64,000 bases of DNA, taken from contig NC_037257.1 in the NCBI RefSeq assembly GCF_000002425.4, positions 11,346,627-11,410,626 on the forward strand, read 5' to 3'. How positions within the stretch are numbered: the stretch's first letter is position 1; the number at the start of each line of letters is the position of its first letter. Below the pieces are notes generated by a model that saw only the letters and a list, made by a program, of their open reading frames with translations, made no database searches and was not told the origin of the DNA. The translations under genes and the position numbers were made by a program. Source of the DNA: Physcomitrium patens. Its lineage: Eukaryota; Streptophyta; Bryopsida; Funariales; Funariaceae. Shown here piece by piece: positions 6,278-63,510 of this stretch.

Positions 6278-8413
6278 CTACCGTCGCCTGCACCCCATCT
6301 TGAGACGAAGAACAACAAAACAGAGGAATCGATATAGGATAACAAAACCTGCCATGATTCCCAGGTTGGTCCATTTGTTGTCTGCACTTCCCTGGAGGCC
6401 TCCTTGCTCCAGCACTTGACTTCCCGTGAGACTGCACTGCCCTGCCCCGTAAAGATCACTGAAGCATTTGTCGCTGACGTGAGAGTATTCATTAATCAAG
6501 AGGGCTTCCAGGGGGTATTTATAGAGGGACAAGTAGTGTGCCCAGAGCCAGTACTTCGGCAAATTATCCCTAGAAATGAAGAACCCTGAATAGAGGAAGA
6601 AAGCGCCCAATAAACCCATGACGATGGTATATCCCAGTTGGTAATTCGGTACAATGGCACTGAATAGAGCCACAAAGGAGTAGGCCGTGACGAGGAGGAC
6701 CCAAATCGTCAGGATGAAGAAGAGGAAAGCGAAGGGCTGGGGTGCAAGGCCCACCAACCAGTAGAGGGGTGCGGAGAAGAGCACGGCATTGAAAAGTAAG
6801 AAGGGGAGGAATATCAAGGTATTGGCCACTATGTAGGACATCATCCGGTACGCACCTCTCGATGTCTCACGAGACATGATACGACATTCCTCGAGGAAAC
6901 AGGGGAGGACTTCTATTGATGATGATAGAAGGAGAGTGACAATGAAAGCCAGAAGACCATAGCGCTCGGACATTCCTCGGGTGCCGTGTCCCATGTTTGC
7001 ATACACGCTACCCAGACAGATGCCTCCAATCAGTGAATGCAGCGTGCGTGCTTTTAAGAGCTGCTTCGTCCTGTAAACATTTATGAAGAACCGGTGTACC
7101 AAAACGGCGATTTCTTGCCAGCTTGAGTTAGCGAAAGAAATGTCGGACGGATTGGTACACAATTTGGTCGACTTTGGAAGCAGTACATGCGCACTGTCTA
7201 AATCTGAGCTACCGTAGTGTTGCAGTTCTGTGTTGCCCGGAGGTCTGGCAGTTGCAGGATTTTCGAACGTGCAACAGTTACAATCTTCATCCAGTTGGTC
7301 AATGATGTCAATCGCGTACTCTAGCGGATTGCTTTGCTCTGGAATCGTGTGACCTGAAGCAGCAAGTCGAACCGAGAGCAGATCCAGAGGTCCGTGATGA
7401 ATTACCTTTCCGCCAGCTAGCAACAAAATGGAGTTCAGGAGCTCAAGAATTCGATAGCTTGGTTGATGTATGCTGAGAATAATGGTGCGATTGTGGGATA
7501 TTGCCATTCTGCTCAACATCGATACCACATGCAGAGCGGAACCACTGTCCAATCCAGACGTGGGTTCATCGAGTATCAATACGGCAGGATCGTGGATGAC
7601 ATCTACGCCGATGGAAACACGGCGCCTCTCTCCACCAGAAAGTCCTCGAAAATTATCGTTGCCGACGCGAGATTTCGCAACATGGAGCAAGCCAAGCTCT
7701 TCCATGGTACTCTGCACTCGCAGCTTCTTCTCGGCCATAGAAATATACGAAGAGATGCGAAGACGAGCGCTGTACATCAAGGTCTCTTCGACAGTCAACA
7801 TTGGAAATAGCGCATCATCTTGCATTACGTAACCTGAGATCCTTCGAAATTGCTGACGCTCCATTTGTTGCTGATTGACCAACATGCTGCTTGGGCGGCT
7901 GCTTGGCCTGAGTTCACATGCCAGGACCTCCAGAAGCGTGGATTTCCCCGCTCCACTTGGCCCAGCCACTCCGAGAATCTCCCCTGGCCTTGCTTTCATG
8001 TTAATTCGATTTAGCACATACTTCGATGAGTCTATTTTCTCAATCGAATCGTCATGTTTATTGCCACAGCAGCCCCACCATCCCGGACTTGCAGATTTTC
8101 GTGGCTTTGTAATCTTGTATGACATGTCCCGAAGCTCAATCTCATAGCTCTTTGTCCTTGACAGCGGAGGTGTGGTTGACTTGAGCGCTGCCTCTACAGC
8201 CAGCTCCGAGATCTTCCATTCCGGGTATGAAAAATCGTAGTGAATTTTGCTCACTTTTTGAGATGGAAATGTCCGAGTTGTGACGATTCCATGCTTGTTG
8301 ATTGAATACAGGTGGCCATGACAGCACGCTTTGATGAAACAGGCGCTTGTAAGATTGGTTACTTCACCGCCGGTGCTCTCCATCTGATTTGTCAATGCGT
8401 TGTTATGATCCAT
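6278..8413 (-). CDS. ABCG (white-brown complex) half-size ABC transporter
   Basis: This intronless gene encodes 711 residues in the NBD-then-TMD order of ABCG half-transporters, which dimerise in membranes and export lipids, cuticle/suberin precursors or hormones. Walker A GPSGAGKST is at about 151-159, the Q-loop VMQDD near 197-201, the signature LSGGERRRVSIG at about 258-269, Walker B LILDEPTSGLDS at about 279-290 and the switch His in LSIHQP near 316. From about residue 430 there are about six hydrophobic segments typical of the ABC2 membrane domain, and the protein ends in a basic MGCRRR. It most resembles the plant ABCG4/5/8/10-type clade (family knowledge; substrate unknown). The first in-frame ATG after an upstream stop is at 8413; an in-frame TTG two codons earlier is not a plausible plant start. 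The N-terminal part before the NBD is unusually long. Confidence 0.93.
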   Translation of the reverse strand: MDHNNALTNQMESTGGEVTNLTSACFIKACCHGHLYSINKHGIVTTRTFPSQKVSKIHYDFSYPEWKISELAVEAALKSTTPPLSRTKSYEIELRDMSYKITKPRKSASPGWWGCCGNKHDDSIEKIDSSKYVLNRINMKARPGEILGVAGPSGAGKSTLLEVLACELRPSSRPSSMLVNQQQMERQQFRRISGYVMQDDALFPMLTVEETLMYSARLRISSYISMAEKKLRVQSTMEELGLLHVAKSRVGNDNFRGLSGGERRRVSIGVDVIHDPAVLILDEPTSGLDSGSALHVVSMLSRMAISHNRTIILSIHQPSYRILELLNSILLLAGGKVIHHGPLDLLSVRLAASGHTIPEQSNPLEYAIDIIDQLDEDCNCCTFENPATARPPGNTELQHYGSSDLDSAHVLLPKSTKLCTNPSDISFANSSWQEIAVLVHRFFINVYRTKQLLKARTLHSLIGGICLGSVYANMGHGTRGMSERYGLLAFIVTLLLSSSIEVLPCFLEECRIMSRETSRGAYRMMSYIVANTLIFLPFLLFNAVLFSAPLYWLVGLAPQPFAFLFFILTIWVLLVTAYSFVALFSAIVPNYQLGYTIVMGLLGAFFLYSGFFISRDNLPKYWLWAHYLSLYKYPLEALLINEYSHVSDKCFSDLYGAGQCSLTGSQVLEQGGLQGSADNKWTNLGIMAGFVILYRFLCFVVLRLKMGCRRR

Positions 8414-10680
8414 TTTCAAACACTTCGAGGAATGTTCTTCTTGTTAACCGAAGTGGACTTGAAAAATGCTCAACTGTCTGACATTGGCAGCAGCTCAAAT
8501 CTAAGACCTTGCAAACGCCAAAACACAAGCGAAAGGGGATGGCTCAAATGCTTTGTTCTTATGATCAGGCCATTACCCATTTCAAGTGTAAGGTGCAGCC
8601 GAAGTCTCCTTGACATGAACAAAAACATCTTCAAGAAACAAACTCAAGGCTGCAAACCCAATGCTTTCCATTCCGTCATCACTATCACACATAGAATGCC
8701 GCCAATTGGAAAGAAGCGCACAAGACCCTTTGTGGTTCCACAGTGACGTCCATCTCACACCAGTCGAGGAGAAAGGAACTTCAGGGCTGCGCTACAACTT
8801 CGGCAATCATGTTCTCCAAGGTCATAATTTCATCTATTCTGCAGTCTCAATAAATTCTTTTAAGCGCTCTGCCATCTGCATCTATCCGCTTGAAGTTCAT
8901 GAAATATGGCCTTCACCTGGTTTATTCATGAGTGTTGCACCAAACGTCGCATTGTTAGAACTTTTAGAACTGTTGAACTGCACCAAGAGCAACTTGAAAC
9001 TTCGAGAAACAGGGAACAGAGTGAGCGGTGCTCGCCTGTTCAAAAACTACCGGACATTGCTCTAAAACTACATGAAATAGAAAGGAAAACGAAATACTCT
9101 TACCTGCATTCGAAAGGTCCTGTCGACAAAGGTCAAGAACATGACACGAGGATGTTCATTTTATGCACAAGAGGATGGTAATGCAGCTCTGCAATTGTTG
9201 TTGCAAGAAGAGACCCCAGTCCTCTGGGAATTGCAGGCAGTTGGGCACCAGGGAAGTTGAGTGGCCATTAGTAAGTGCCAAATATCCCAGTGATCTGCAA
9301 CTTGAAGGGAGTAAGAGAGGACCAGCCTGTGTCCTAGTTGCAGGGCAGAAAGCACCCCACGTGCACACCCCATTACGTCGTTTTAACTCATTAGGTTGTC
9401 GTGTTGCTGTCACAGGATCCAAGAACTCAGGACTGCATCTGCATCGACTATAATTTAAAATTCATCTAGCTAATACAATCTCGACTCTATCATTATGTCG
9501 AAATTTGATTTTAGTCCTGTTGAAGTAAATCTCCTCGTAATTCCCTTCATCCACACATCTCCCTGTAATTTTGTGTTGAATTCTAGAGATTGAGGCAAGC
9601 AACAGAGCAACACTGGTGGACTGATCGGTGAAAATGTTGATCTTGTTACTGTCACGACTCCCTAATGATGTACAAGACTCGGATGTTTGTAAAGTAATAA
9701 CAAGCTAACCTATCAGTTCTCCAAATCAGACACTCCAATCACTTTTGAGTCACAAGGAACAGCCCTACGCCTCAATGACATCAGCGTGAAATATCCGGAC
9801 ACTCGGCTTGCTTATCAACTGCAAACTCTACAAGTCCACTGTTGATGTATGTATAAACCAAAACTTCTGAATCCATTCTTATCAATAATTTTCCATTTTT
9901 AAAGCAAAATGTGAACGGATCTCTCTATGCCATGCTCACGGTGAGGATCCACAACTTGGCATCAGATTCAGGTGTTAAGAGTTAAGTCAAAACCAACAAT
10001 GAAGTATACGATACTTGCTACAGCACTGCTTAATTAGTGCCCAACTCACTTACTTCAAGATTTTAGGGGCAGAATCGATGATTAAGTACTGGTACTTTGG
10101 AAACTTAACTCTCCTTCACATGATTTCCCCTTCTGCGTACACAGTCCACTCCAAGTCGACGATCATTCCATCTCAGAAGAGAGGATATGCTTTTGGTGTG
10201 CCTTGGAGAAATGCTTCTCAAGCTCCACAACTAATTGCCTTCGGCCACCATCATTTCTGCACAGGCTGTTACAACCATGTGCTTCTCCTGTATCCACAGG
10301 AACCAAACAATTCAATAAAAATCAGAGTTCAGAAGCCGCACAAACTATTACTCTGCTATAATGCTATCATGCCTGCTATTGCATTGAGTACGTACAGTAA
10401 AATTCTTGTTCTGACGTGAAGACAAACCAAAGATACACTGATATATCGTGTATTACTGTAATGATAGTGCCTTAATTCTTTGGTCGCCCTGCACACACTT
10501 CAGACCACACGAACTTGCAGAACTCTGCAAGAGTTCCAACACTGTTGATGAATCAAGTTGTGAACTCTTCCGCTCCTTAATCTACAAATGCGGTTGTCAG
10601 AATTCTCGGTTGAGGTTCCGGGATTTTGCAGGCAGTTGGTGCACCCTATTTTACAATTGTTCTTGCATTATTATTATGTA
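8414..10680. other. Intergenic/5' region of the ABCG gene, no gene recognised
   Basis: Moderate base composition up to about 10.68 kb suggests promoter and 5' UTR of the minus-strand ABCG gene. Several open frames of 70-134 codons occur on both strands (for example 10015-10419 +), but none shows a recognisable domain, and several overlap each other in different frames. I see no RNA gene. Confidence 0.45.
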
Positions 10681-16722: not shown

Positions 16723-17077
16723 TGTTGAGAATGTTTAGAAAGACACAAGAGTAGTAGTAAGTCATACACACACAAGAGTAGTAGTAAGTCATACACTTAC
16801 ACAAGAGTAGTAGGAAGTCATACACACACAAGAGTAGTAGTAAGTCATACACTTACACAAGAGTAGTAGGAAGTCATACACACAAGAGGGTTTCTAAGGA
16901 GAGAGAGCTTCACACACACAAATCTATTGATCTGGTTGTGTCTAGTATACAAGTAGAGAAAAGAGAAGAGGATAAATAGTACTTCTCCACTAGACTCTAA
17001 ATATTGTAGCTATAATAATTACTGTAGTCTACAATAAATATTATGGAGAGTGCCAGCTACATTTAATGATTTCAACA
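16723..17077 (-). repeat. copia 3' LTR (355 bp) with internal minisatellite
   Basis: It begins TGTTGAGAATG and ends TTTCAACA. Positions of about 16742-16880 hold about five imperfect copies of a roughly 26-bp unit built on CACAAGAGTAGTAGTAAGTC. The other LTR has only about three copies, which accounts for most of the length difference. Confidence 0.9.
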
Positions 17078-17284
17078 CTCCTCCTCGTTCATCATAATAT
17101 TTACATAATATAAAATTTGTATAGAATTATGATCTATACTTTTCTGTGATCTTGCAAGATCAACAATTGTTGCCTCATTAAAACCTTATCTAAGAAAACC
17201 TTATTTTATTTAAGAACAACCATAGATGAAGGAAAAAGAGTACATCATTTTCTTTAATTATTTAAAGAGCCCATTAACTTTCTT

Positions 17285-19599: not shown

Positions 19600-19764
19600 G
19601 ATATTGTCACGGACACAAAATACAGACTTGAAATCTAACAAGAAGTTCAAGAAGAAATGGCAGAACTAGATTAAACAGATGAGTACAAGAACAACACCAG
19701 AAAGGTGAGCTAGAACTCCAAGAGATGTGTTGTCGAGACTGAAGAACTCTTCAGCCTCGATCCC

Positions 19765-19772
19765 TATATATA
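19765..19772 (-). promoter_or_regulatory. LTR TATA box (3' LTR)
   Basis: TATATATA is followed 32 nt later (minus strand) by the 11-mer AGTCTCGACAA, the likely RNA start. The same arrangement is present in the 5' LTR. Confidence 0.7.
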
Positions 19773-19813
19773 CTCCTACTTAGGAAGCTTCTCGAGCTAC
19801 TTCTATTAACTAG

Positions 19814-20090
19814 GAAGCTTCTAGAAGGTTCCAGAGGCTTCCTTTCTAGAAGGTTCTAGAAACTTCTCGAGCTACTTCTATTAACTAGGAAGCTTCTAGA
19901 AAGTTCCAGGGGATTCCTTTCTAGAAGCTTCTAGAAACTTCTCTTCTAGAAGGTTCCAGAGACTTCATTTCTAGAAGCTTCTAGAAACTTCTCTCTAAAA
20001 GGTTCCAGAGGCTTCTCTTCTAGAAGGTTCTAGAGGCTTGTTTTCTAGAAGGTTCTAGAAACTTCTCTCTAGAAAGTTCTAAAGAATATG
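19814..20090 (-). promoter_or_regulatory. Array of heat-shock-element-like GAA/TTC units in LTR U3
   Basis: Units of TTC and GAA recur at an exact 5-bp pitch. Perfect five-unit alternations lie at 19844-19866, 19919-19941, 19969-19991 and 20043-20065; the second extends with one orientation change and one GAG to 19966. A six-unit run with one GAG substitution lies at 19814-19841. This matches the nGAAn/nTTCn inverted array bound by heat-shock-factor trimers. The array lies directly upstream (minus-strand sense) of the TATA box. The equivalent array in the 5' LTR is at about 25592-25850. Heat response is inferred, not shown. Confidence 0.75.
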
Positions 20091-20616
20091 TTCCTAACAT
20101 CACCCCCTCCTTTAGCTTCGAGGTCTCTGAGAAGCAATGTTGTTGATCAGTACCAACGCAAGAAAATGAAGATCTGTCGCATAACTTCTGCTATGAACTC
20201 CAACTGTTGTTTACAAGGCAAGTGATTCATCGACCCTTGAAGCCAACGGTAGTGGCCCACGCCTTCGACTTCTGACCAAGCATGAACTTTCGTGTCCTCA
20301 TTGTGAAATTGTCCTACAAACATGCCTTCTGGTTGACCATCGTAAGTAGGCTCGATCTCAAATACGATCACCAATGATCAGTTACTCGGTATCCTCTGTC
20401 GTCGTCGTGGTACATGTAGTTCTTCATCTCAGGGTCGCCTTCGTGAGCTACTTGGTTGCGATACTCTGACTGGCATAGTATCTATCTCTTGGCTATCCAT
20501 ATCAAAAGACCAAACTACGATCTATCTTGGAGAAAATAACTACATCAACTATGAATTTTGCTGGTGCTCTCCCCTTTTCTTATATTGTTGGGAGAACAAG
20601 CTTCAGAAAGAAGCTG

Positions 20617-23600
20617 TCATCGAATTGATTTAGGTTTATCGGGATGTCGTTGATAAAACTCCTCTACTTTTTGTCGCGCATTCGCAAGATTTTCAGCTGG
20701 CTCCCACGTTCGCTCATTAATGTCATAGTTGCACCAATGAACAAGATATTCTAACTTTCCCCACCTTCGCCGTGAATCCAATACCTTTTCAACCTCGTAT
20801 TCTTCATGGTTCTCGATTTCAATATTAGGTGGCGGACATTGCACTCTTCCAGGAAAAGATGACTCTCGATAAGGTTCCAACAGAGAAACATGAAAGACTG
20901 GATGTACCTTCATAGAAGCCGGTAACTCCAACCGGTATGCCACTGGATTAATTTGCTTCTGGATGATAAATGGTCCCAATCTTCGATAGTCCAACTTATC
21001 ACATGGTCGCTTGGTCTTGATATTTCGTCGAAGAAGCTAGGCTTTGTCTCCAAATTTGAAAGTAGGTGCTGGATTCCGAAATCTATCTGCAGACGTCTTA
21101 TAGGATTCTTGAGCGGATTGTAATTGAAGCTTCAACATAGTTTGAAGCTCTGATAGTTGCTTCACAAATCCTTCAGTTGCTGGATTGTTATTTGTTGATG
21201 GACTCAATAAATCAAGCTTCGGATGATACCCATAGTTGGAAAAGAATGGTGTTTGTTGAGTCGACGCATGGAGGGTGTTGTTATATGCAAACTCGGCTAG
21301 CGGTAGATATGCAGTCCAATCGTCTTGCTGATAGTTGATGTTGCATCGTAAGTACTGCTCCAAGACTTGGTTCACCCATTCCGTTTGGCCATCAGTTTGA
21401 GGATGGAAAGCTGAAGAAAGCTTGATATCCACCTTCAATATCCCAAAGAGAGATCTCCAAAACTTTGACACGAACTAGGTACCTCGATCTCATATGATAT
21501 CATCTGGTAGTCCATGATATCGATACACATTATCGAGAAAGAGTCTTGCTGTGACTTCACTGGACGATGTCTTCTTACAAGGAACAAAGTGTGCCATCTT
21601 CGTAAGCCGATCTATTACGACAAAGATGCTGTCAAATGAGTTTGATGATGGCAAGTCCGTGATGAAGTCCATAGAAATTGAAGACCATGGTCGACGTGGA
21701 ATTGGCAATGGCTGTAGAAGTCCATAAGGGCGATGCCGAGGATTCTTAGATCTTGAACAGATGTCACAAGAGAGGACAAAATCTTTCACATCCTTCCACA
21801 TTTGGGGCCACCAAAAATCTCGGGAAATAAGCTCCAAGGTCTTGTTGAATCCAAAATATCCCGCAGCTGGAAAATCATGGCGAGATTGAAGAACTCGGAG
21901 TCGTGCTAGTCCTTTTGGAATGTACAATCGCTCTTCAAAGTATAAAAGATCTCCCTCCACCTTGAACTTGTCGTCATTGGTACGTTGCTTGATATCAATG
22001 GCTACTGAATCTTTAATGGTCATAGCACGTACCTGGTTTAGGAAGTTAGCATCAAATGATACAATAGTAGCACAAAGTTGAAATCTCTTTGGCTTCAATA
22101 ACGTTGTACATTGTTGATCAAACGCTGCTTCTCCAGCCTTTGGTGCAAGATACGATCTCCTTGATAAAGCATCGGATAGTCCTTGCTGCCTTCCAGGTCG
22201 ATAAGTGATAACAAAATCGAATCTAGATAGCGACATATTTCACCGAGCTTGACGCCGATTTAAAACTCGAGCCGTCATGAAATACTCCAAATTCTTGTGA
22301 TCCGTATATACAGTTACTGGATGTGCAGCTCCTTCAAGAAAGTGACGCCATTCTTCGAAAGAATCCACTATAGCAAGAAGTTTCTTATCGTGGATCTCAT
22401 AATTGATTTCAGCAGCAAAGAACTTCCGAGAATAGAATGCAACTGGATGGAGCTTCTTATCTTCACTCATTTGTGAAAGCACAGCTCCCAAAGCAAAATC
22501 TGAAGCATCAGTTTCTAAATAGAAGGCCTTTGTAAAGTCTGGATGTACCAAAATTGGAGCTGTAGTAAATGCTGTCTTCAAATCTTGAAACGCCTTCTCC
22601 GCCAAAGGTCCCCATTCCAACTTATCCTTACATGTTAATCGAGTGAGAGGAGCAGCAACTTGAGAATAATTCTTGATGAAGATCCGATAGAAGTTAGCAA
22701 AACCAAGAAAGCATTGTACGTCTCTAACCGTCTTCGGAACCTCCCAAGACGTGATTGCTTCTACTTTCTTGGGGTCCATCTTCAAACCTTCTGTAGTCGC
22801 AATGAACCCCAAAAATTCCATCTCCGTTTGGTGAAATAAACTCTTTTCTAATTTGGCATATAGTCCTCGCTTGCGTAGTTTCTCCAAGACCAAACGAACA
22901 TGCTCCTCATGCTCTTCCTCGTTTTTAGAGAATATTAGAATATCGTCCAAGTAGATGACAACAAAATCGTCGAGGTGTTCTCGAAAGATGTCATTCATCA
23001 TATGTTGGAAAACCGCTGGAGCATTGGTAAGACCAAAAGGCATGACATTATATTCGAAATGACCATACCTTGTACGGAATGCTGTCTTCCACTCATCTCC
23101 TTTCTTGATTCGTACGAGATTATAAGCTCCCCTTAGATCAATTTTTGTAAAGATCTTCGCATGTCCAAGTTGTTCTAAGAGACTAGAAATCAAGGGTAAT
23201 GGGTAACGATTTTTCTTTGTTACCTTGTTGAGGCCTCGATAGTCCACACACATCCGTAATGATCCATCTTTCTTCTTCACAAATAAGATGGGTGCTCCAG
23301 CTGATGATTTTGAATGACGAATGAAGTTCTTGGCTAGATTCTCGTCGATGTACTTTCGTAACTGTGCCAACTCCGTTTGCGATAGATTGTAGATTGGGCC
23401 AAAAGGTGGTTGTGCTCCTTCTTGCAAGTCTATGGCACAATCATATGGTCGGTGTTCCAGTAGTATGTCGGCGTTCTTCTTTTGAAACACGTCTTCAAAA
23501 TCTTTATATTGCTCCGGTATACTTGCTGTTGAGATCTTCTCCTCGATAGTTGGAGCCGCATAAATGACAAATGGAGTGCCTTCCTTAGATGATCTTATAA

Positions 23601-24213
23601 ACGCTCTTGCTCCAATGAATAAGGATTTCTTTTTTCGAGGTTTTTTACGAGGTTTTTTCTTGGGTGGTTTTGTGGGAAAAGTCATCTTCCACAACCTCCA
23701 ATCTATCAATGGATTATGTTTTTCCAACCAAGAAAGACCAAGAATAATAGGATTTGATGGGGTTCTAATAATATTAAAAATAATATGACTACTATGGTCT
23801 TTAAACGTTACTTCTATAGGTTTTGATTCATGGGTGATGCTACCAGACAATAAAGGTCGCCCATCTATGACCTCAACATGAACAGGTTTTGATTTTTGTA
23901 CTAAAGGGATCTTATGACGCTTTGCAAATTCTTTGTCTAAAAAACAAGCAGATGCTCCTGAATCTAGTAGTGCTAAGGTTCTCAGTTTTTGAGGGCCGAT
24001 AAATAGAGGGATTGTAAAACAAAGTGCAGGTTGGGCAGAAAGAAAGGAACTTGATTTTTGTTGGGATATTTCATTGTCCAGCCGCACGGTTCCTACTGTG
24101 GCTGGGCATCCTCGTTTTCCTGAACAAATACTCTCGTAGTCTTGACTATGCCTCGATTTTGCTTTTTGGGGCAGTTTCCGACTTTGTGGCCTTCTCCACC
24201 GCAATACAAGCAT
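20617..24213 (-). pseudogene. Chromovirus A pol: protease-RT-RNase H-integrase-chromodomain, four nonsense codons
   Basis: Protease has LLDSGASACFLD near 23950. RT runs from about 23440, with YPLPLISSLLEQL, then FTKIDLRGAYNLVRI and the catalytic VIYLDDILIFS near 22940. RNase H includes TDASDFALGAVLSQ and YTDHKNLEYF. Integrase has a zinc-binding region where the second His appears as Tyr (AAGYFG), CDIC, and the catalytic core with SMDFITDLP, a DRGT block and TDGQTEWVNQVLEQYLR. The C-terminus carries a chromodomain (about 20830-20680: [26 protein letters not shown]), which binds methylated histone tails in this family. In-frame stops are at 22240 (TGA for the expected Trp), 21490, 21475 (TAG at a Gln position) and 21037 (TAG at a Trp position). 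Pol overlaps gag by about 120 nt in the -1 frame, so expression would have used -1 frameshifting; no canonical slippery heptamer is evident. Confidence 0.93.
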
Positions 24214-25118
24214 AAATTTTCCTCCATACGTCGCTTTTTTTCTTCTATAGTAAGAGATTTGATACGTACCGCATTAATTTGCATGTCTTCCACCTCTGAA
24301 TGCGAATTCACACTGCTTGCCGACATAGTTGGAGCATGGCGAATTGTATGTTGTCTTGAGCGTTGGTCTTGGCGACGTTGGAATAGGTGATTATCGCACT
24401 TCACAGCTTGGCTAATGGCTTCATTGAGCGTTCGTGGATCAGGAAGAGTTAACAGCAAATCCTTCACATCATCTCTTAAATCCCAATAGAATTGACTCAT
24501 CAACGCTTCTTCATTCCAATTGATGTCGCATACTAATTGCCTGAAATTCGAAGCATAGACTGATGTAGAACGCATCCCTTGTCGTAGCGATCGGATCTTT
24601 GTTGTAGCCCATCGAACCTTATCATGTTCACCAAATGCTTCCGCAAATGCTTCCAAAAAGGTTTCGAAGTTGTTTAATATGGATGATCGTTTCTCAAACA
24701 AAGGAGCAAACCATGATAGAGCTTGTCCCGTAAGTAAGGTTCCAACAAGCCCAACACGTGACTCCTCCGTTGGATATCGTTCGGGCTGTAAAATTGTTAT
24801 CAACCTGATTTGATTGACGAATCTTCGAAACTTGGAACGTGTTCCATCAAACTTATCTGGAAGGCTAACTCGAGGCTCCTTATGTTGTAGAACTAGTGGT
24901 TCTTGTCGAACCTGAGGTAAAGTTGTTTCTCCAAGTGCCGAAATTTGAGGCTGGTGTAGTTTAGATTGTGCTATCCCAGATACTCCATCATTATGAAGCC
25001 TTGCTACCACTCCTTCAATCTCTGCAATTCTTTGTGATAACGTAGCGAGGGCATTCATAATAGCATCTAACTTAGACTCCGAACTTTCTGTCATACTAAT
25101 GTCTTGACCTCCGACCAT
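24093..25118 (-). CDS. Chromovirus A Gag (intact, 341 aa)
   Basis: A complete open frame starts with ATG at 25118. The early part has a short heptad-like coiled-coil segment (IMNALATLSQRIAEIEGVV). The central retrotransposon Gag domain contains FDGTRSKFRRFVNQ, then LLTGQALSWFAPLFE, and a later FRQLVCDINWNEEALMSQFY block. A single zinc knuckle CLYCGGEGHKVGNC (CCHC) is near the C-terminus. Gag forms virus-like particles and binds the RNA genome. The frame is undamaged although pol is broken, so this copy might still supply Gag in trans; that is inference. The ATG follows a structured leader with four stem-loops. Confidence 0.9.
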   Translation of the reverse strand: MVGGQDISMTESSESKLDAIMNALATLSQRIAEIEGVVARLHNDGVSGIAQSKLHQPQISALGETTLPQVRQEPLVLQHKEPRVSLPDKFDGTRSKFRRFVNQIRLITILQPERYPTEESRVGLVGTLLTGQALSWFAPLFEKRSSILNNFETFLEAFAEAFGEHDKVRWATTKIRSLRQGMRSTSVYASNFRQLVCDINWNEEALMSQFYWDLRDDVKDLLLTLPDPRTLNEAISQAVKCDNHLFQRRQDQRSRQHTIRHAPTMSASSVNSHSEVEDMQINAVRIKSLTIEEKKRRMEENLCLYCGGEGHKVGNCPKKQNRGIVKTTRVFVQENEDAQPQ

Positions 25119-25161
25119 TCTAAAAGAAGGACAAAAATGACCCTATAAGAGGCAATATTGG

Positions 25162-25350
25162 TTTATAGGAGGGTAATCCACAACCTATAAAATGCCTTAA
25201 GAATTTCAAGAAGAGGGATAATCCACTCTCTCCAAGAAGAATAAGACTCCAATATTGTAACAGAAGAAGTATCAGTTTAGAGGAGGGTAATCCGCAACCT
25301 CTAAAAAATGCTAGTATACCTTCAAGTAGAAGGGTAATCCACACTCTACT
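25162..25350 (-). promoter_or_regulatory. Four stem-loops with a shared loop in the chromovirus A leader RNA
   Basis: Stem-loop 1 (25162-25191) has arms TTTATAGG/CCTATAAA; stem-loop 3 (25276-25305) has TTTAGAGG/CCTCTAAA; stem-loop 4 (25325-25350) has AGTAGA/TCTACT. Each encloses a 14-nt loop of the form AGGGTAATCC(A/G)CA(A/C). Stem-loop 2 (about 25212-25229) keeps the loop core GGATAATCCA but has only a 4-bp stem. The arms differ while pairing is kept, which points to selection for the fold. The position between priming site and gag suggests a packaging or dimerisation signal. Confidence 0.72.
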
Positions 25351-25385
25351 AAGAAAGAACTAGCTTTAATATCTCAAGTTAGTGT

Positions 25386-25396
25386 AGTCTCGACAA
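25386..25396 (-). promoter_or_regulatory. Putative self-priming primer-binding site of chromovirus A
   Basis: On the minus strand TTGTCGAGACT begins 2 nt after the 5' LTR. It is the exact reverse complement of AGTCTCGACAA at 25534-25524 (minus), 32 nt downstream of the TATA box and hence at the predicted RNA 5' end. No tRNA-like priming site is as well placed. Confidence 0.72.
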
Positions 25397-25398
25397 AC

Positions 25399-25868
25399 TG
25401 TCACGAATACAAAATACAGACTTGAAATCTAACAAGAAGTTCAAGAAGAAATGGCAGAACTAGATTAAACAGATGAATACAAGAACAATACCAGAAAGGT
25501 GAGCTAGAACTCCAAGAGATGTGTTGTCGAGACTGAAGAACTCTTTAGCCTCGATCCCTATATATACTCCTACTTAGGAAGCTTCTCGAGCTACTTCTAT
25601 TAACTAGGAAGCTTCTAGAAGGTTTCAGAGGCTTCCTTTCTAGAAGATTCTAGAAACTTCTCAAGCTACTTCTATTAACTAAGAAGCTTCTAGAAAGTTC
25701 CAGGGGATTCCTTTCTAGAAGGTTCTAGAGACTTCTTTTCTAGAAGCTTCTAGAAACTTCTCTCTAAAAGGTTCCAGAGGCTTCTCTTCTAAAAGGTTCC
25801 AGAGGCTTGTTTTCTAGAAGGTTCTAGAAACTTCTCTCTAGAAAGTTCTAAGGAATATGTCCCTAACA
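25399..25868 (-). repeat. Chromovirus A 5' LTR (470 bp)
   Basis: This is the promoter-bearing copy for the minus-strand element. TATATATA lies at 25559-25566 and the putative RNA start at 25534. Against the 3' LTR, every substitution I noted in the first 300 bp has A or T here where the other copy has G or C. Confidence 0.93.
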
Positions 25869-25873
25869 GATAT

Positions 25874-28101: not shown

Positions 28102-28402
28102 TGTTGAGAATGTTTAGAAAGACACAAGAGTAATAGTAAGTCATACACACACACAAGAGTAGTAGTAAGTCATACACATACACAAGAATAGTAGTAAGTC
28201 ATACACACAAGAGGGTTTCTAAGGAGAGAGAGCTTCACACACACAAATCTATTGATCTAGTTGTATCTCATATACAAGTAGAGAAAAGAGAAGATGATAA
28301 ATAGTACTTCTCCACTAGACTCTAAATATTGTAGCTATAGTAATTATTATACTCTACAGTAAATATTATGGAGAACATCGGCTACATTTAATGATCTCAA
28401 CA
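28102..28402 (-). repeat. copia 5' LTR (301 bp)
   Basis: It begins TGTTGAGAATG and ends ATCTCAACA, matching 16723-17077 but with fewer copies of the about-26-bp minisatellite unit (28124-28205). Confidence 0.9.
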
Positions 28403-28724
28403 AGCTCCTTCCAATATGTTAGTGGTATATATTTAACTTTTGAGATCACATCTTTTAATGCCTTAGCTATATAATTCCATACTATCGATCTTCTTTTACT
28501 TTAGTAGCGTTTGATGGTAAAGTATTCCATGCTAAGGATCCATTTTCTGCCTTGGATTTCTTGCTCTTTCAAGTTAGACAATTCTTCCTGCAAACTCTCA
28601 TTCAATTCATTTGTAATCTTGTTCTCTGTGGCAAGCTTCGAAGTGAACTGGCAATTCTACGCTTCTTTATTTTGAGAATCCTCTATTTCCATAATAAACA
28701 TTAACTCCTCTTTCAATATTTCTT

Positions 28725-33441: not shown

Positions 33442-33446
33442 ATGAT

Positions 33447-33983
33447 TGTCAAGGACAAGAACTTGATGAAAGCAAATAAATAAATGAGACTCTCTCAAAG
33501 AAATTTGACAAAATAAAAATAAAGAAGTATATATATTAAAAAAGAAATTAGAATGGCTATTGCTAAAAGGCAAGGAAATTAAAGATTCTTGAAATTAGAC
33601 TACAAGTAAGAAAAGAATTGATAAGAGTGAAGAAGGCTTCACTCTTGCTTCTATATATACTATCTATCTAGGATCTATATGGCGACATTCTATAGGACTT
33701 CCAGAAACGTGTTGACCTTGTATGATACATATCTAATTTGTAAGATAAGTTTTCTATATGAATGCTATATAATTAGCTTGTTTTTTAAGCTACCAACACA
33801 TGTGATACATGATTAGCTTGTTGACCAAGTTTCTAACCTATCAATCAATTACAAACATATGTAAAGTCAAAACAACATCTAGCAAGCTTCTTTAGAATGT
33901 ATTATGAAAATAATCTACTTTTACCTACTTCTATCTATTCATATTATCTAGGTAATAATTATAGTAGGTATATATCCATGACA
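33447..33983 (-). repeat. Chromovirus B 3' LTR
   Basis: It starts TGTCAAGGAC and ends CCATGACA. TATATATA is at 33652-33659 and the putative RNA start ACTCTTATCAA at 33628-33618 (minus), 31 nt downstream. Confidence 0.88.
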
Positions 33984-34566
33984 TTATCTCCCCTTTTAGG
34001 AACAAGTTCTATAAAGAACATTGATTATATATTGAAGAAGTCTATGATACAATGAATTATATTTGCTATATATTTTGATCTTTATTTCTTTTAAAGGTAG
34101 TTAATAGGTCGTTTCAACCATTGATAATATTCTATTCCAAGGTAGAAAAATCACCCTATTATTTCCTTATTATTGAAACCTTTATAATTTCTTTCAAATA
34201 AAATATTTGTACCACCATCAAGAGTCATTTCTACCTACAATAAAATCACCTAACATCGAGAGTCTCTTTTTAGATCATGATACCAAATGCATTGTATCTT
34301 ACCATCTATTTGAGGAAGAACATGACATTCTTGAAGGTCTTCATCTCTATTATGTCATCTTAAAGATTAAGATAATTACAATATTTCCTTTGGTAAGTTA
34401 GCAAATGATGGCTCTTAAGTTGAATTTGTTGGCTATTGATTCTCTATTTCATTAATGCCAATATCAAAATTACAAACAATGATAGAAGATAGAATGTAAT
34501 CTTTCTTAAATTATGTTTCTTTAATAGTAAAGATTTGTTATCCTTCATCTTGATTTTGATGGATGT

Positions 34567-34666
34567 NNNNNNNNNNNNNNNNNNNNNNNNNNNNNNNNNN
34601 NNNNNNNNNNNNNNNNNNNNNNNNNNNNNNNNNNNNNNNNNNNNNNNNNNNNNNNNNNNNNNNNNN
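34567..34666. other. Assembly gap of 100 N
   Basis: Exactly 100 undetermined bases, the usual placeholder for a gap of unknown size. It lies in the 3' coding end of chromovirus B, so that region cannot be interpreted. Confidence 1.
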
Positions 34667-34672
34667 CCTATG

Positions 34673-37600
34673 TCAATGCCACCTTAAGTCTAAGACTTCT
34701 TTTATCTTGAATTTTTTATTATTATCCACTTCTATAAGAGGCAGTGGTATTTGTCTTTTTCTTGAGATATTCACTATCTTATATTGCTCTAAAAAAGCCA
34801 TGTGAAATTCAAAATGGATTTTCATAGACTTAGGTAGATTTAATTGATAAGTAATTGGATTGACTTGTTCACAAATAGGAAATGGTCCAAATCTACAATA
34901 ATCCAATTTATCACAAAGACGAATACTTTTAATATTACAAAAAAGTAATTATATCTTATCACCAATGTAAAAATGAGGTTGTTCCTTATAATAAGTATCT
35001 CTATTTCTCTTTTATTATTCTTGAGCTTCTTTTAGTCATGCCTTCATTATTGTATGTAGATTAAATAAGTGATTTTTCAAATCACCTACCATAAGATTAT
35101 TAACTTTTAAAAAGTCAAAACCATCAAGTTATAAATAATAACCATAATTAATAAAGAAAGATGTTTGTTGCATAGAAAAATGTATTGTGTTATTATAAAT
35201 AAATGCTACCAATGGCAAAAGAGTTGTCCAATCATCTTGTTGGTAGTTGATGGTACACCTCAAATACTACTCGAAAACTTCATTTATATGTTTTATTTGT
35301 CTATCAGTTTCAAGGTGGAAAGCCAAAGATAGTTTTATGTCTACTTTTAGAATCTTAAAAATCATTTCCAAAAATATTAATACAAATTGAGTTTTCTTAT
35401 CCAATATAATATCCTTAAGCAATCCATGAAAGTAATAGATTATCTTAAAGAAAAGCTTAGTTGTTTCTTCACATGTGATATCTTTTGTATATGATAAAAA
35501 AATTTCCATTTTGATGAAATAATCTACTATCACAAATATAGAATTATAAGAATATGAAATTAGAAGATCTATAATAAAATCCATAGAAACAGAAGACCAT
35601 GGTTGTTTTAGAATGGATAATAGTTGAAGAAGTCTATAGGATTAATGAGGAGGAATTTTTGACCTTGAACAAACGTCATATGATTTGACAAAGTCTTTTA
35701 TTGCCTTTCACATTTGTGGCCACCAAAAATATTTGAATATAAGTTTTAAAGTCTTATTATATCAAAAATTTCCAATCACTAGAAAGTCATGACATACTTG
35801 AAAAATACATAATGTGCTTCTCTTTTTAGAATATATAGATGTCCTTCAAAATAGAATGGATTATTTTTGAATTCAAACTTAGAAGCATCCTGAAACTTAG
35901 AAAAAAGTCTCTTAATAATATAAATAAGAAGATCAAAAAACATACTTGATTAAATTTATTTTACAAGAATTGAATCAACAATCAATATTGATTTTATTGC
36001 TTGAAGATGAAAATTCTTAGGCTTCAAGAGAATCATTCTTTGTTGATCAAAAGATGCATCTCCTTCTTTTGGTACAAGATAAGAACATCAAGAAAAGACA
36101 TTTAATAAATCTTATTATTTTTTGAAACAATAAGTGATCTTAAAATCAAATCTTGATAAAAACATGCTCTAATAAGCTTGGCAACAATTCAAATCATGTG
36201 CTCATATAAAGTATTTAAGATTCTTATGGTTGGTATAAATAATGATTGGGTTGGAAGCAACTTCTAAATAATGGTACCATTCTTGAAACAAATCCACAAT
36301 TGCAAGAAGTTCTTTGTTGTGAATCTTCTAGTTAATCTCTACTATTGAAAATTTTCTTGAAAAAAAAGCTATTGAATAAAATTTATCATCTATTTCTATT
36401 TTTGATAATATGGCATTGAAAGCAAAGTCTAATATATTTTTTTTAATAAAGAATGGCTAAAAAAAGTCAACATGATATAAGATTGGTAAAAAAATAAAGG
36501 CTATCTTTAAAGCTTCAAATATTGCTTCTGATTCTTGATTCTATTAATATTTGTCTTTATAAGTCAAATATGTAAGTGGAGCTGCAACTTGAAAGAAGTT
36601 CTTGATGAAGATCGAGTAGTAGTTGGCAAATCTCAAAAAATATTGGAATCTCCTACCGTTTATGAGATCTTTCAATCCATAATAGTTTGAACTTTCTTAG
36701 GATCCATCATAAGACCATCATTTAAAATGATGTATTCTAAGAAGTTAACTTGAATAGTATGGAATATATACTTTTCTATCTTAACATAGAGTTCCGCATC
36801 TTTTAATTTTTGTAACACATGACAAATATAAAGTTTATATTCTTCTTTATTCTTAAAATAGATTAAGATGTTGTCTAGGCTATAAAAAATAAAATCATCT
36901 AAAAATTCTTAAAAAACATCATTCATTAGATGTTGAAAAGCTATTAGTACATTTGTAAGTCCAAAAAGCATGACATTGTATTCAAAATGTCCATACTTTG
37001 TTCAAAATGTAGTCTCCTATTCATCTCTTTCTTTGATACATATCAAATTTTCTACTCCTCATAGATCTATTTTTATATATATCTTAGCTTAATTCAATTA
37101 ATCAAAAAATTTAGATATCAAAGGTAGTAAGTAGCTATTGTTGATGGTGATTTTATTGAGTCCTCAATAATCAACACACATTAGCAATGATCCATCTTTT
37201 TTCTTTACAAATAAAATTAAAGCTCTTTCTAGAGATTTGAAATGGCATATGAAGTTCTTTACCAAATTTTCTTTAATATATTCCTTCAGCTCAGCCAACT
37301 CATTTTATGATAAATTATAAATTAGTCCAAATGGTGGTTGAGCTCTTTCTTGAAGGTCAATTGAACAATCATAAGAAAGATGTTCTAATAGAATATTTAC
37401 ATTTTTTTTTTTTTAAATATATCTTAAAAATCTTAAAATTGGCTTAAAATGCTACTTAAAATCTTTTCACTATTAGAAATATATGCGATATAAATAACAC
37501 AAGGTAATCATTCTTTTACAATATGCAAAAAAACTCTTATACCTACAAATACAAATTTAATTGCATAAGACTTATGACTTTCTACTTGATCAATTATACT

Positions 37601-38990
37601 TTTAGTAAAAAATTAAGACTACAAAAAATTCAATCTATTTTTGGATTATATTTTTTTAGCTATAATAAACCTAAAATAACATGATTAGAAGAAAATCTAA
37701 TGATATTAAATATTATAAAGCTACTATAACCAATGATTGTTGTTTCTATAAGAAAGATTTCATAAATAATATTTTCTAAAGATAATGGACGATTGTCTAT
37801 GCCTTCTACATAAATAGGTTTAGTTTTATTCACTAAAGATATGCTATGTCTTTTAGTAAATTCTTCATCTAAGAAACACATTGAGGCTCCTAAATCTAAT
37901 AAGGCAGAGGCTTTGTGATGTTTAGATTCTAAAATAATATTTATTATAAAATAAAGAGAGGGTTCTAAAGAGAGAATAAGACCTTCACTAGGTATTATAT
38001 AAGGTTTTAGTCACACGATGTCTATTATAGCTAAACAAACTTGTTTTTTGACATACTAACTTTTTTGATAGCTGTACTCTTCATTTTGTGGTTGTGTCAC
38101 TTCTTTGGATAATATTGAGTAATGTGCTTAGGTTTTCCATAATATAAGTACAATCCTTCTTGACTATGATGAGTCTATTTTTGCTTAGTAAGAAATTTAA
38201 AATGTATCGTATCATTTTACATATCGTCTACTTTCAAATATGTATATTATAAAGATATTGATATTATTATTAAATTATAGTAATATCAAGGTATACTTAT
38301 AAAACTCTCAAATTAAAATTCAAAAAGTTGATTGTTACACCTTACAACAAAGTCAATTACTTGACTCAATGTTTGAAAATTAGATAAGTTGAGCATCAAT
38401 TTTTTTGCCTCATATTGTTATCTATAGAAAAATTGGTTAACAAGTGCAACATCATCCCACTTAATATTAATTACAAGTTGTCAAAACTATGAAGTATATA
38501 ACATTATCGATTGATTGTCTTGTTGTAAAATATAGATCTTATTGGTTGTAATAAAAATTGTATCATGTTCTCCATACATTTATAAAAACTTCACCAAAAA
38601 AGCCTCTAAATTATCCAATATTGGATCTTCTCATTCAAGAAAAGATTAAAATCATGATGATATTGAATCTGAAAAGAGTGTATCAATGAATCTAACTTAC
38701 AAGCTTGAAATTGAATAGCTTTAGAATTGAAGTTCAATCATAAGTTATACTTGATTGATAAATCTTCAAAACTTGAATCTTTTGCCATCAAAATTCTTGG
38801 GCAGTGCAACCTTTGCTTCTTTAATACTAAAAGAATCTTCCACTATAGAAAAAGGGACATGATTTAGTGCAAATATTGAAGAAATTCCAATCATTTCTAT
38901 ATCTTTGCTCCCTGGTATTTGTTTTGCTCTCTATAGTAGTAAATTGAGATGATGCATTGCAAGCATTAACTCCTTTAATTGCTCTTACAT
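34673..38990 (-). pseudogene. Chromovirus B gag-pol remnants
   Basis: Recognisable islands on the minus strand, by comparison with copy A: integrase C-terminal region at 34906-34673 (MDYCRFGPF, then MKIHFEFHMAFLE), integrase core at 35584-35267 (MDFIIDLLISYSYNSIFVIVD, here quoted in part), RT and RNase H between about 37400 and 36200 with numerous stops, protease-adjacent sequence at 37881-37660 (CFLDEEFTKRHSISLV), and a zinc-knuckle relic near 38120-38160 where knuckle Cys positions read Tyr. Gag sequence is unreadable in one frame. It is clearly non-functional. Confidence 0.85.
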
Positions 38991-39246
38991 TTGTACTATT
39001 GCACTCTTCATTTTAAGAAGCTCTACTATGATATTACTTAAAAAAAGAAAGATGTCTAGTATTACTCAAGATAAATAGAAGAAAAGACTTTAAATTTTAA
39101 AAAAATAAAATAAAAATAAAAATACTAGGAATAATATTAGTTTAGAAGAGGATAATCTATAATTCCTAATTTACTTAATTCTTATCAAGAAAAATGGATA
39201 CTCTACTCTTAATTACGAAAAGATAAAGCTCTGATATTATAAGTGT

Positions 39247-39257
39247 ATTCTTGTCAA
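39247..39257 (-). promoter_or_regulatory. Putative self-priming site of chromovirus B
   Basis: TTGACAAGAAT (minus strand) lies 2 nt inside the 5' LTR, the same position as in copy A. It pairs at 9 of 11 positions with the putative RNA start ACTCTTATCAA; both mismatches are explained by C-to-T decay. Confidence 0.6.
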
Positions 39258-39259
39258 TC

Positions 39260-39809
39260 TCTTAAGGACAAAAACTCAATGAAAACAAATAAACAAGTGA
39301 GACTCTTTCAAAGAAATATGACAAAATAAAAATAGAGAAGTACATATATTAAAAAAAGAAATTGGAATAGCTATTGCCAAAAAACAAAGAAACTAGAGAC
39401 TCTTGAAATTAGACTAGAAGTAAGAAAGGAGTTGATAAGAGTGAAGAAGGCTTCATTTTATTTTCTATATATATTATCAACCTAGAATCTATGTGGTAAC
39501 ATTCTATAGGACTTCCAAAAATGTATTGACTTTGAATGATACATATTTTAACTTACAAGATAAGTTTTCTATATGGATGCCACATAGTTAACTTGTTCTA
39601 TAAGCTACCAATACATGTAGCATGTGGTTAGCTTGTTGACCAAGTTTCTAACCTATAAATCAACTACAAACACATGTAAAGTCAAAACAACATCTAGGAA
39701 GCTTCTAAAAAGCTCTTCTAGAAGATATTATGTAATTAATTTATTTTTACCTACTTCTACCTATTCATATTACCTAAGTAATAATTATAATAGATATGTA
39801 TCTATAACA
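39260..39809 (-). repeat. Chromovirus B 5' LTR
   Basis: It aligns along its whole length with 33447-33983. TATATATA lies at 39466-39473 and the putative RNA start at 39442. The U3 keeps a GAAGCTTCTA and TTCTAGAA pair near 39700-39722, far fewer heat-shock-like units than copy A. Confidence 0.88.
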
Positions 39810-39814
39810 ATGAT

Positions 39815-61159: not shown

Positions 61160-61699
61160 TATCAAGGACATAAATCTCAAAGAAAGGAAATCTTCAATAC
61201 ACTCTTGTGTCACTAAAGAGAACTAAAAAGTCACTCAAAAGGTGATATAATATTAAATTAGAATGGCTATTGCCAAAAATAAGAAGACTAGAAAGTCTTA
61301 AAATAAGTCTAAGGATTAGAAAGGGATTGAAAAGAGTGAAGAAGGCTTTAGCCTTGCCTCCATATATACTCTTAATTAGGAGCTATGTGGCAATGTCGTA
61401 TATGACCTCCAAAACATGTTGATTTTGCAAGACACGTATCTTAATTTGTAAGACAAGTTTTCTATATGTTTGCTACATAGTTAGCTTATTTTGCAAGCTA
61501 TCAACATGTGATTAACTTATTGATCAAGTTTCTAATCTATCAATAAACTATAAATAGATATAAAATCAAGCAGTATCTATGAAGCTTCTAAAAAGCTTTT
61601 CTAAAAGATCTTATGAAATTAACCTATTTTTATCTTTTTTTATCCATTCCTACCTAATCATATAACTATTTACTAGAATATTTATGTGTTTCTGTGACA
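61160..61699 (-). repeat. Solo chromovirus LTR (B/C sub-family)
   Basis: About 540 bp aligns end to end with the LTRs of copy B in the same orientation. It starts TATCAAGGAC (TG eroded to TA) and ends TGTGACA. No element body adjoins either side. Flanks AGAAT (61155-61159) and AGAAC (61700-61704) are a 4/5 target duplication, consistent with LTR-LTR recombination after insertion. Confidence 0.8.
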
Positions 61700-62948: not shown

Positions 62949-63497
62949 TGTCACAAATATATACATGTAAACCAATAATTATTTATATGATTTAGATAAT
63001 AGTAAGTAAAAGCAAGTCAATTCCATAATATCTTCTATAAAAGCTTCTTAGAAGCTTCATAGATACTGCTTTGATTTTATAGGTGTCTCTAATTGAATTT
63101 TTAGATTAAAAACATGGTCAACAAATTGGCCATGTATTAGACATGTTGATAACTTGAAGAACAAGCTAACTAAATGGCCCACATATAGAAAACTTGCCTT
63201 ATAAGCTAAGGCATATGTCCTGCAAAGTCAACACATATTAGAGGTCCTATAGAACATCGCCATGTAGCTTTCAGTTAGATAGTATATATAGACGCAAGAA
63301 TGAAGCCCTCTTCATTCTTGTCAATTCTTTTCTTGTTTCTATTTTAGTTTCAAGAGTCTCAAGTTTTCTTGTCTTTTGGCAATAAGCCATTCCAATTTCT
63401 TTTTATTTTATATACTTCCTTATTTCTATTTTGTCACTTTTTCTTTGACATGGATTTCATTGGTTTATGCATCATCTTCTAGTTCATGTCTTTGATA
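62949..63497 (+). repeat. Chromovirus C 5' LTR
   Basis: It starts TGTCACAAAT and ends TTTGATA (CA eroded to TA). TATATATA lies at 63283-63290, with the putative RNA start ATTCTTGTCAA at 63314-63324, 31 nt downstream. Confidence 0.83.
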
Positions 63498-63499
63498 GA

Positions 63500-63510
63500 T
63501 TGATAAGAGT
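63500..63510 (+). promoter_or_regulatory. Putative self-priming site of chromovirus C
   Basis: TTGATAAGAGT lies 2 nt inside the LTR. It pairs at 9 of 11 positions with this copy's RNA start (63314-63324) and perfectly with copy B's RNA start ACTCTTATCAA. Confidence 0.6.

Follow-up and report, generated by a model that had tools for sequence, protein, structure and literature searches.

Likely self-priming by the predicted RNA 5' end, and a hairpin across the U3/R boundary, in moss chromoviruses of the Tf1/sushi-Tcn1 group

The fission-yeast element Tf1 uses an 11-nt primer that is cut between bases 11 and 12 (PMC7175516), and a three-duplex 'pretzel' leader has been described in the Tf1/sushi group (PMC10085805). 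Among plants, self-priming has been predicted for the majority of Tcn1-clade elements, in mosses and club-mosses, and the affinity of this clade to Tf1/sushi has been noted (Neumann 2019, PMC6317226); the novelty that the original prediction claimed for self-priming in land-plant chromoviruses is therefore not upheld. The Selaginella moellendorffii element SM-Tcn1 was reported to have neither a tRNA primer binding site nor evidence of self-priming, and the same study reports no Tcn1-like clones from the ferns tested by PCR (Novikova 2010, PMC2864245).

The window analyzed here, 64,000 nt of the Physcomitrium patens genome, contains three LTR retrotransposon copies, A, B, and C, and the LTR fragment D (Table 1). 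We consider it very likely that A, B, and C are self-primed chromoviruses of the Tf1/sushi-Tcn1 group with a hairpin at the U3/R boundary, in which the RNA start, its cleavage, and its extension are predictions made from the sequence. The LTRs of copy A are 96.8% identical over aligned bases. Matches to the integrase zinc-binding, SH3_Tf2-1, and Chromo domains follow those to reverse transcriptase (RT) and RNase H, which is the order of a Ty3/gypsy chromovirus; the piece carrying the integrase core (21037-21474) gave no Pfam match. When the translation was read by eye against the HP1 positions, the chromodomain showed Y, W, and Y as putative aromatic-cage residues. An interrupted pol reading frame makes it probable that copy A is non-autonomous. 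Copy B, whose LTRs share 85.5% identity, is a related element of greater age that has decayed, and a 100 N assembly gap lies within it (34567-34666). Direct repeats with 91% identity (16799-17082 and 28122-28409) are found on either side of copy A and its surroundings, and copy A may be nested inside another repeat. The host neighborhood also includes a reading frame for an ABCG-type transporter (6278-8419), for which the named matches of highest identity among the best 120 of 7703 were from mosses (Physcomitrium, Sphagnum, and Ceratodon, 54-61%), and one for a POT-family (PTR2) transporter (44880-45869).

Table 1. Positions of the retrotransposon features in the window (5' and 3' refer to the direction of each element).
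Feature	Position	Strand	Remarks
Copy A, complete Ty3/gypsy chromovirus insertion	19605..25868	-	LTR pair, TSD, domain matches
Copy A, LTRs	5' LTR 25399-25868; 3' LTR 19605-20099	-	
Copy A, TSD ATATC	5' side 25869..25873; other copy 19600-19604	-	
Copy A, TATATATA box	25559..25566	-	Box start 32 nt upstream of predicted RNA start
Copy A, predicted RNA 5' end and self-primer AGTCTCGACAA	25524..25534; 3' LTR copy 19730-19740	-	
Copy A, priming site TTGTCGAGACT	25386..25396	-	2 nt beyond LTR end
Copy A, hairpin in 5' LTR	25527..25554	-	11/12 pairs, one G-U
Copy A, hairpin in 3' LTR	19733..19760	-	12/12 pairs, one G-U
Copy A, gag ORF	24093..25118	-	Retrotrans_gag and Ty3_capsid matches
Copy A, pol ORF piece: protease, RT, RNase H	22240..24213	-	Domain matches
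Copy A, pol ORF piece: SH3_Tf2-1 and chromodomain	20617..21036	-	Domain matches
Copy A, polypurine tract GGAGGGGGTGA	20100..20110	-	Precedes 3' LTR
Copy B, related element, decayed	33447..39809	-	TSD and LTR pair
Copy B, TSD ATCAT	39810-39814 and 33442-33446	-	
Copy B, predicted RNA start ACTCTTATCAA	39432..39442; identical 11-mer in 3' LTR 33618-33628	-	
Copy B, priming site TTGACAAGAAT	39247..39257	-	
Copy B, hairpin in 3' LTR	33621..33648	-	11/12 pairs, one G-U
Copy B, decayed hairpin in 5' LTR	39435-39462	-	8/12 pairs
Copy C, 5' LTR	62949..63497	+	B-family member at right edge of window; body leaves window
Copy C, predicted RNA start ATTCTTGTCAA	63314..63324	+	
Copy C, priming site TTGATAAGAGT	63500..63510	+	
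Copy C, hairpin in 5' LTR	63294..63321	+	12/12 pairs, one G-U
LTR fragment D, B/C family	61247..61652	-	Start ACTCTTTTCAA at 61337-61327; hairpin decayed, 9/12 pairs

A scan of prokaryote genomes yielded eight further contigs, L001 to L008. L001, from Synechococcales AVDCRST_MAG81, was 94.6% identical to copy A over the RT-RNase H stretch, and L002 to L008, from a Trichormus MAG (ERR2144891 bin), showed 60-77% identity over the matched pieces. These contigs are probably eukaryotic contaminants within cyanobacterial MAGs, and those of the Trichormus MAG may come from the fern Azolla, a host of such cyanobacteria. Scans of viral contigs gave nothing useful, and a tblastn search of plasmids returned only three records with distant matches. 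In a midpoint-rooted RT tree of 27 rows, built without named Tcn1 references, A, B, and L001 grouped with the database proteins P0002, P0007, and P0010 (94/99, drawn open), and L002, L003, L004, L005, L007, and L008 formed a separate group (99/99). L006 and the frog and Absidia elements were placed elsewhere, and the sole named seed-plant protein, from Tanacetum, lay on a very long branch.

Re-reading of the sequence bore out what had been proposed for copy A: the putative priming site is the exact complement of the 11-mer that begins 32 nt from the start of the TATA box. The LTR of copy A terminates in CA at 25399, and the priming site thus begins 2 nt past the LTR. Start and site paired at 11 of 11 positions in six of the nine copies that show both (A, L001, L003, L005, L007, and L008); L002 and L006 were left out of this count, apparently because their matches start too far 3' to show the sites. 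The six exact pairs use three different 11-mers, AGTCTCGACAA, AAGGCGAACAA, and AAGGTGAACAA. The covariation of start and site expected from the original prediction is clear between families, and exact pairs at equal spacing extend to another deep clade, represented by contigs taken as eukaryotic. The remaining copies pair less completely. Copies B and C each match at 9/11 positions, and the start of B is the complement of the site of C and vice versa, as had been noted before. In copy C both mismatches become G·U in RNA, giving 11/11 pairs in place of 9/11 Watson-Crick pairs, and the two mismatches of copy B are A·C; the 5' side of L004 pairs at 7/11. The geometry was nearly constant: 2 nt separate the LTR end from the priming site in 9/9 copies, the first base of the TATA box is at -32 or -31 in 8/9 copies (-28 on the 5' side of L004), and the -1/+1 step is CA in 13/13 LTRs.

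The expectation by chance was estimated from 1000 dinucleotide shuffles of the LTR of each copy. In none of the six exactly pairing copies did a shuffle give an 11/11 match (0/1000 each). A 9/11 match was equaled or bettered in 250/1000 shuffles for copy B and 164/1000 for copy C and is weak when taken alone; these two copies count as evidence because their matches occupy the same position with respect to the TATA box, the CA step, and the end of the LTR. The primer:site helix was present in the best fold of six of seven leaders, with a mean probability of 0.94-0.96, copy B being the exception. For most copies, the whole leader folded into a structure barely more stable than those of shuffled sequences (z -0.35 to -2.99; copy B, +1.49). 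When the leaders were compared with the 'pretzel', the central duplex was predicted in 6/7, and the flanking duplexes differed between copies, with mostly weak z-scores. Taken as a reading of the sequence, self-priming by the first 11 nt of the predicted RNA is well supported. Pol II would initiate at the CA that lies some 32 nt downstream of the start of the TATA box, and the first 11 nt of the transcript would fold back to pair with the priming site, 2 nt past the LTR end. Cleavage behind nucleotide 11 by RT/RNase H, and extension from the end so released, would follow, as has been reported for Tf1.

A whole or half tRNA might instead prime reverse transcription, the complement in the LTR being accidental. 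tRNA use is prevalent among plant elements, with Met the commonest (PMC6317226), but none of the nine copies has a TGG in the 24 nt adjacent to the LTR, and the exact pairs, built on three 11-mers and never reproduced by shuffling, are hard to regard as accidental. We therefore rejected tRNA priming, by the test for a tRNA-type TGG, as very improbable. ARAGORN found no tRNA gene in the window. The exchange of start and site between copies B and C is less easily assigned. The original prediction put their mismatches down to later C-to-T decay, and parallel decay is possible, given that the copies differ at two positions only, both transitions, and that the two LTRs of copy B differ by 65 transitions and 13 transversions. 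Decay as the sole cause was rejected. Copy B carries ACTCTTATCAA in both LTRs (starts at 39442 and 33628), which is most simply explained if this start was present before insertion, and in copy C the U3 arm of the same LTR has a base that compensates for the differing start base; the difference is thus at least partly older than the insertion. B and C may tentatively be seen as recombinants between two sublineages, in each of which the start of one sublineage is combined with the site of the other. The exact swap, the shared start of the two B LTRs, and the fit of the U3 arm of C to its own start all favor such an origin, and recombination between elements near the U3-R junction has been proposed for fission-yeast elements (PMC10085805). 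However, the U3 arm in the 3' LTR of copy B fits G, not A, at position 7 of B's start, and recombination is a fair rival to decay, two sites being too few to decide.

A hairpin that the original prediction had not noticed spans the U3/R boundary and overlaps the 11-mer. It consists of 12 pairs and a 4-nt loop, with its center some 6 nt before the RNA start; the 5' arm lies in U3, and the 3' arm includes the first 8 nt of the 11-mer in the A and B families or the first 9 nt in the Trichormus-MAG contigs. With G·U allowed, at least 11 of the 12 pairs form in 10/13 LTRs (both LTRs of A, L001, the 3' LTR of B, C, L003, the 3' LTR of L004, L005, L007, and L008). The hairpin is decayed in the other three, namely the 5' LTR of B (8/12), D (9/12), and the 5' LTR of L004 (at most 6/12, three centers tried). 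At least 11/12 pairs were found at 0.16% of 99,589 centers in the same DNA, true sites included. Among 332 TATA-like sites, at least 11/12 pairs at that spacing occurred solely in these LTRs and in simple-sequence repeats (AT, GT, and CATA tracts; one at 1951). When the U3-R context was folded, the stem had a mean pair probability of 0.82-1.0 in those 10 LTRs that keep 11/12 or more pairs, 0.24 in the 5' LTR of B, and 0 in D. For the 3' LTR of A, C, L005, and L007, the hairpin was computed at -12 to -18 kcal/mol versus -10 to -16 kcal/mol for the 11-mer duplex formed from two strands; in L005, the computed primer:site duplex was stronger than the hairpin.

The two arms fit each other within an LTR better than across families: the mean was 11.2 pairs with the own arm versus 5.8 across families, where the highest value was 10. 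When arms were permuted among 12 LTRs, the observed total was reached in 0/20,000 permutations. Permutation within families was not significant (1570/20,000), so the support for the hairpin comes from between-family differences, which cover only two deep clades. Stem pairs were counted by script, and MAFFT could not register the two clades. Four loop-proximal pairs in the A and B families, and three in the Trichormus-MAG contigs, lie outside the RNA 5' end. These change between clades with pairing kept (read outward, GAAG/CTTC versus TGG/ACC and TAG/ATC), indicating that the stem itself is kept, beyond mere likeness to the priming site. A copy of the priming site placed in U3 was accordingly rejected as the sole origin of the 5' arm. 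Full-text literature searches on hairpin-type topics and on self-priming and the clade found no description of this hairpin, which is weak evidence; several papers on Tf1 lay outside their coverage.

Some contigs showed further peculiarities. In L004, the start in the 5' LTR (L004:169-336) is altered, yet the U3 arm and the priming site still agree; its 3' LTR has a different start and an intact hairpin, and L004 is a mosaic or decayed copy. L008 (L008:2-4967) looks like a tandem LTR-element structure: two internal regions flank an LTR whose self-priming pair is exact.

Self-primed elements face an inherent problem: the primer sequence is present at both ends of the RNA, but cleavage and extension should be confined to the 5' copy. 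Since the predicted RNA start lies inside the hairpin, the 11-mer at the 5' end would be without a U3 arm to pair with and so be available to the priming site. The 3'-LTR copy keeps its U3 arm and would be locked in the hairpin, which would keep it from pairing with the priming site and from being cut; without such masking, cleavage of the 3' copy after nucleotide 11 would sever the template for strand transfer. That the hairpin masks the 3'-LTR copy of the primer and leaves the 5' end free is proposed with much less confidence than self-priming itself. If true, the hairpin would solve the two-copy problem by geometry alone. A broader form of the proposal, which we regard as possible but somewhat doubtful, is that a conserved, covarying U3/R hairpin is common to self-priming chromoviruses of non-seed plants and acts as a copy selector, the primer being free only at the true RNA 5' end. 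The 11-mer would then be locked wherever U3 is attached, in the 3' LTR of genomic RNA, in read-through transcripts, and in plus-strand strong-stop DNA; the 3' copy would not be cut as a false primer, and plus-strand DNA would be kept from self-folding. We take the RLG1 family to belong to the same clade as the copies described here. RLG1 is a chromodomain gypsy family expressed in Physcomitrium protonema (PMC7466625), and the masking role is testable in this laboratory moss.

The palindrome could also act in DNA, as a promoter dyad at the start site, with pairing to the priming site as the only role of the 11-mer in RNA. It sits exactly at the TATA box and CA start, and one paper notes that hairpin structures are often involved in the Pol II promoters of LTRs (PMC3601003). 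We consider this rather unlikely, given that complementarity is conserved between clades and the sequence of the stem is not, and that stems of this quality at TATA spacing are as rare as described above. A contact between the RNA ends, in which the free 5' end pairs with the U3 arm of the 3' LTR and aids strand transfer, seems less likely still. The U3 arm is complementary to positions +1 to +8 or +9, and end-to-end RNA contacts are known for Ty1 and Ty3. However, the three or four loop-proximal pairs involve bases that precede the RNA start and are missing from the 5' end, yet these pairs also covary between clades, and a local hairpin should form more readily than an end-to-end contact.

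To our knowledge, no hairpin across the start site is known for Tf1. Among the fission-yeast Tosmo elements, the difference in one U3 reaches to within 9 bp of the U3-R junction (PMC10085805), so a U3 hairpin arm may not be conserved there. SM-Tcn1 resembles the moss copies in its clade, Tcn1, to which they probably belong, in having gag and pol with a chromodomain, and in its 5-bp TSD; in contrast to these copies, for which self-priming is predicted, its authors did not find it (PMC2864245). The plant Tcn1-clade chromoviruses resemble the moss copies in being chromodomain Ty3/gypsy elements of non-seed plants with no tRNA-type primer binding site and with predicted self-priming, whereas no mention of the U3/R hairpin was found for them (PMC6317226). 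In the Tf1/sushi group (Tf1, Tf2, Tj1, Tosmo, and sushi-ichi), the first nucleotides of the RNA, 11 in Tf1, serve as the primer, the site lies just beyond the LTR, and the 5' leader is folded into the 'pretzel' (PMC10085805). The moss copies share with this group a predicted RNA start that complements the LTR-adjacent site, and differ from it in having plant hosts.
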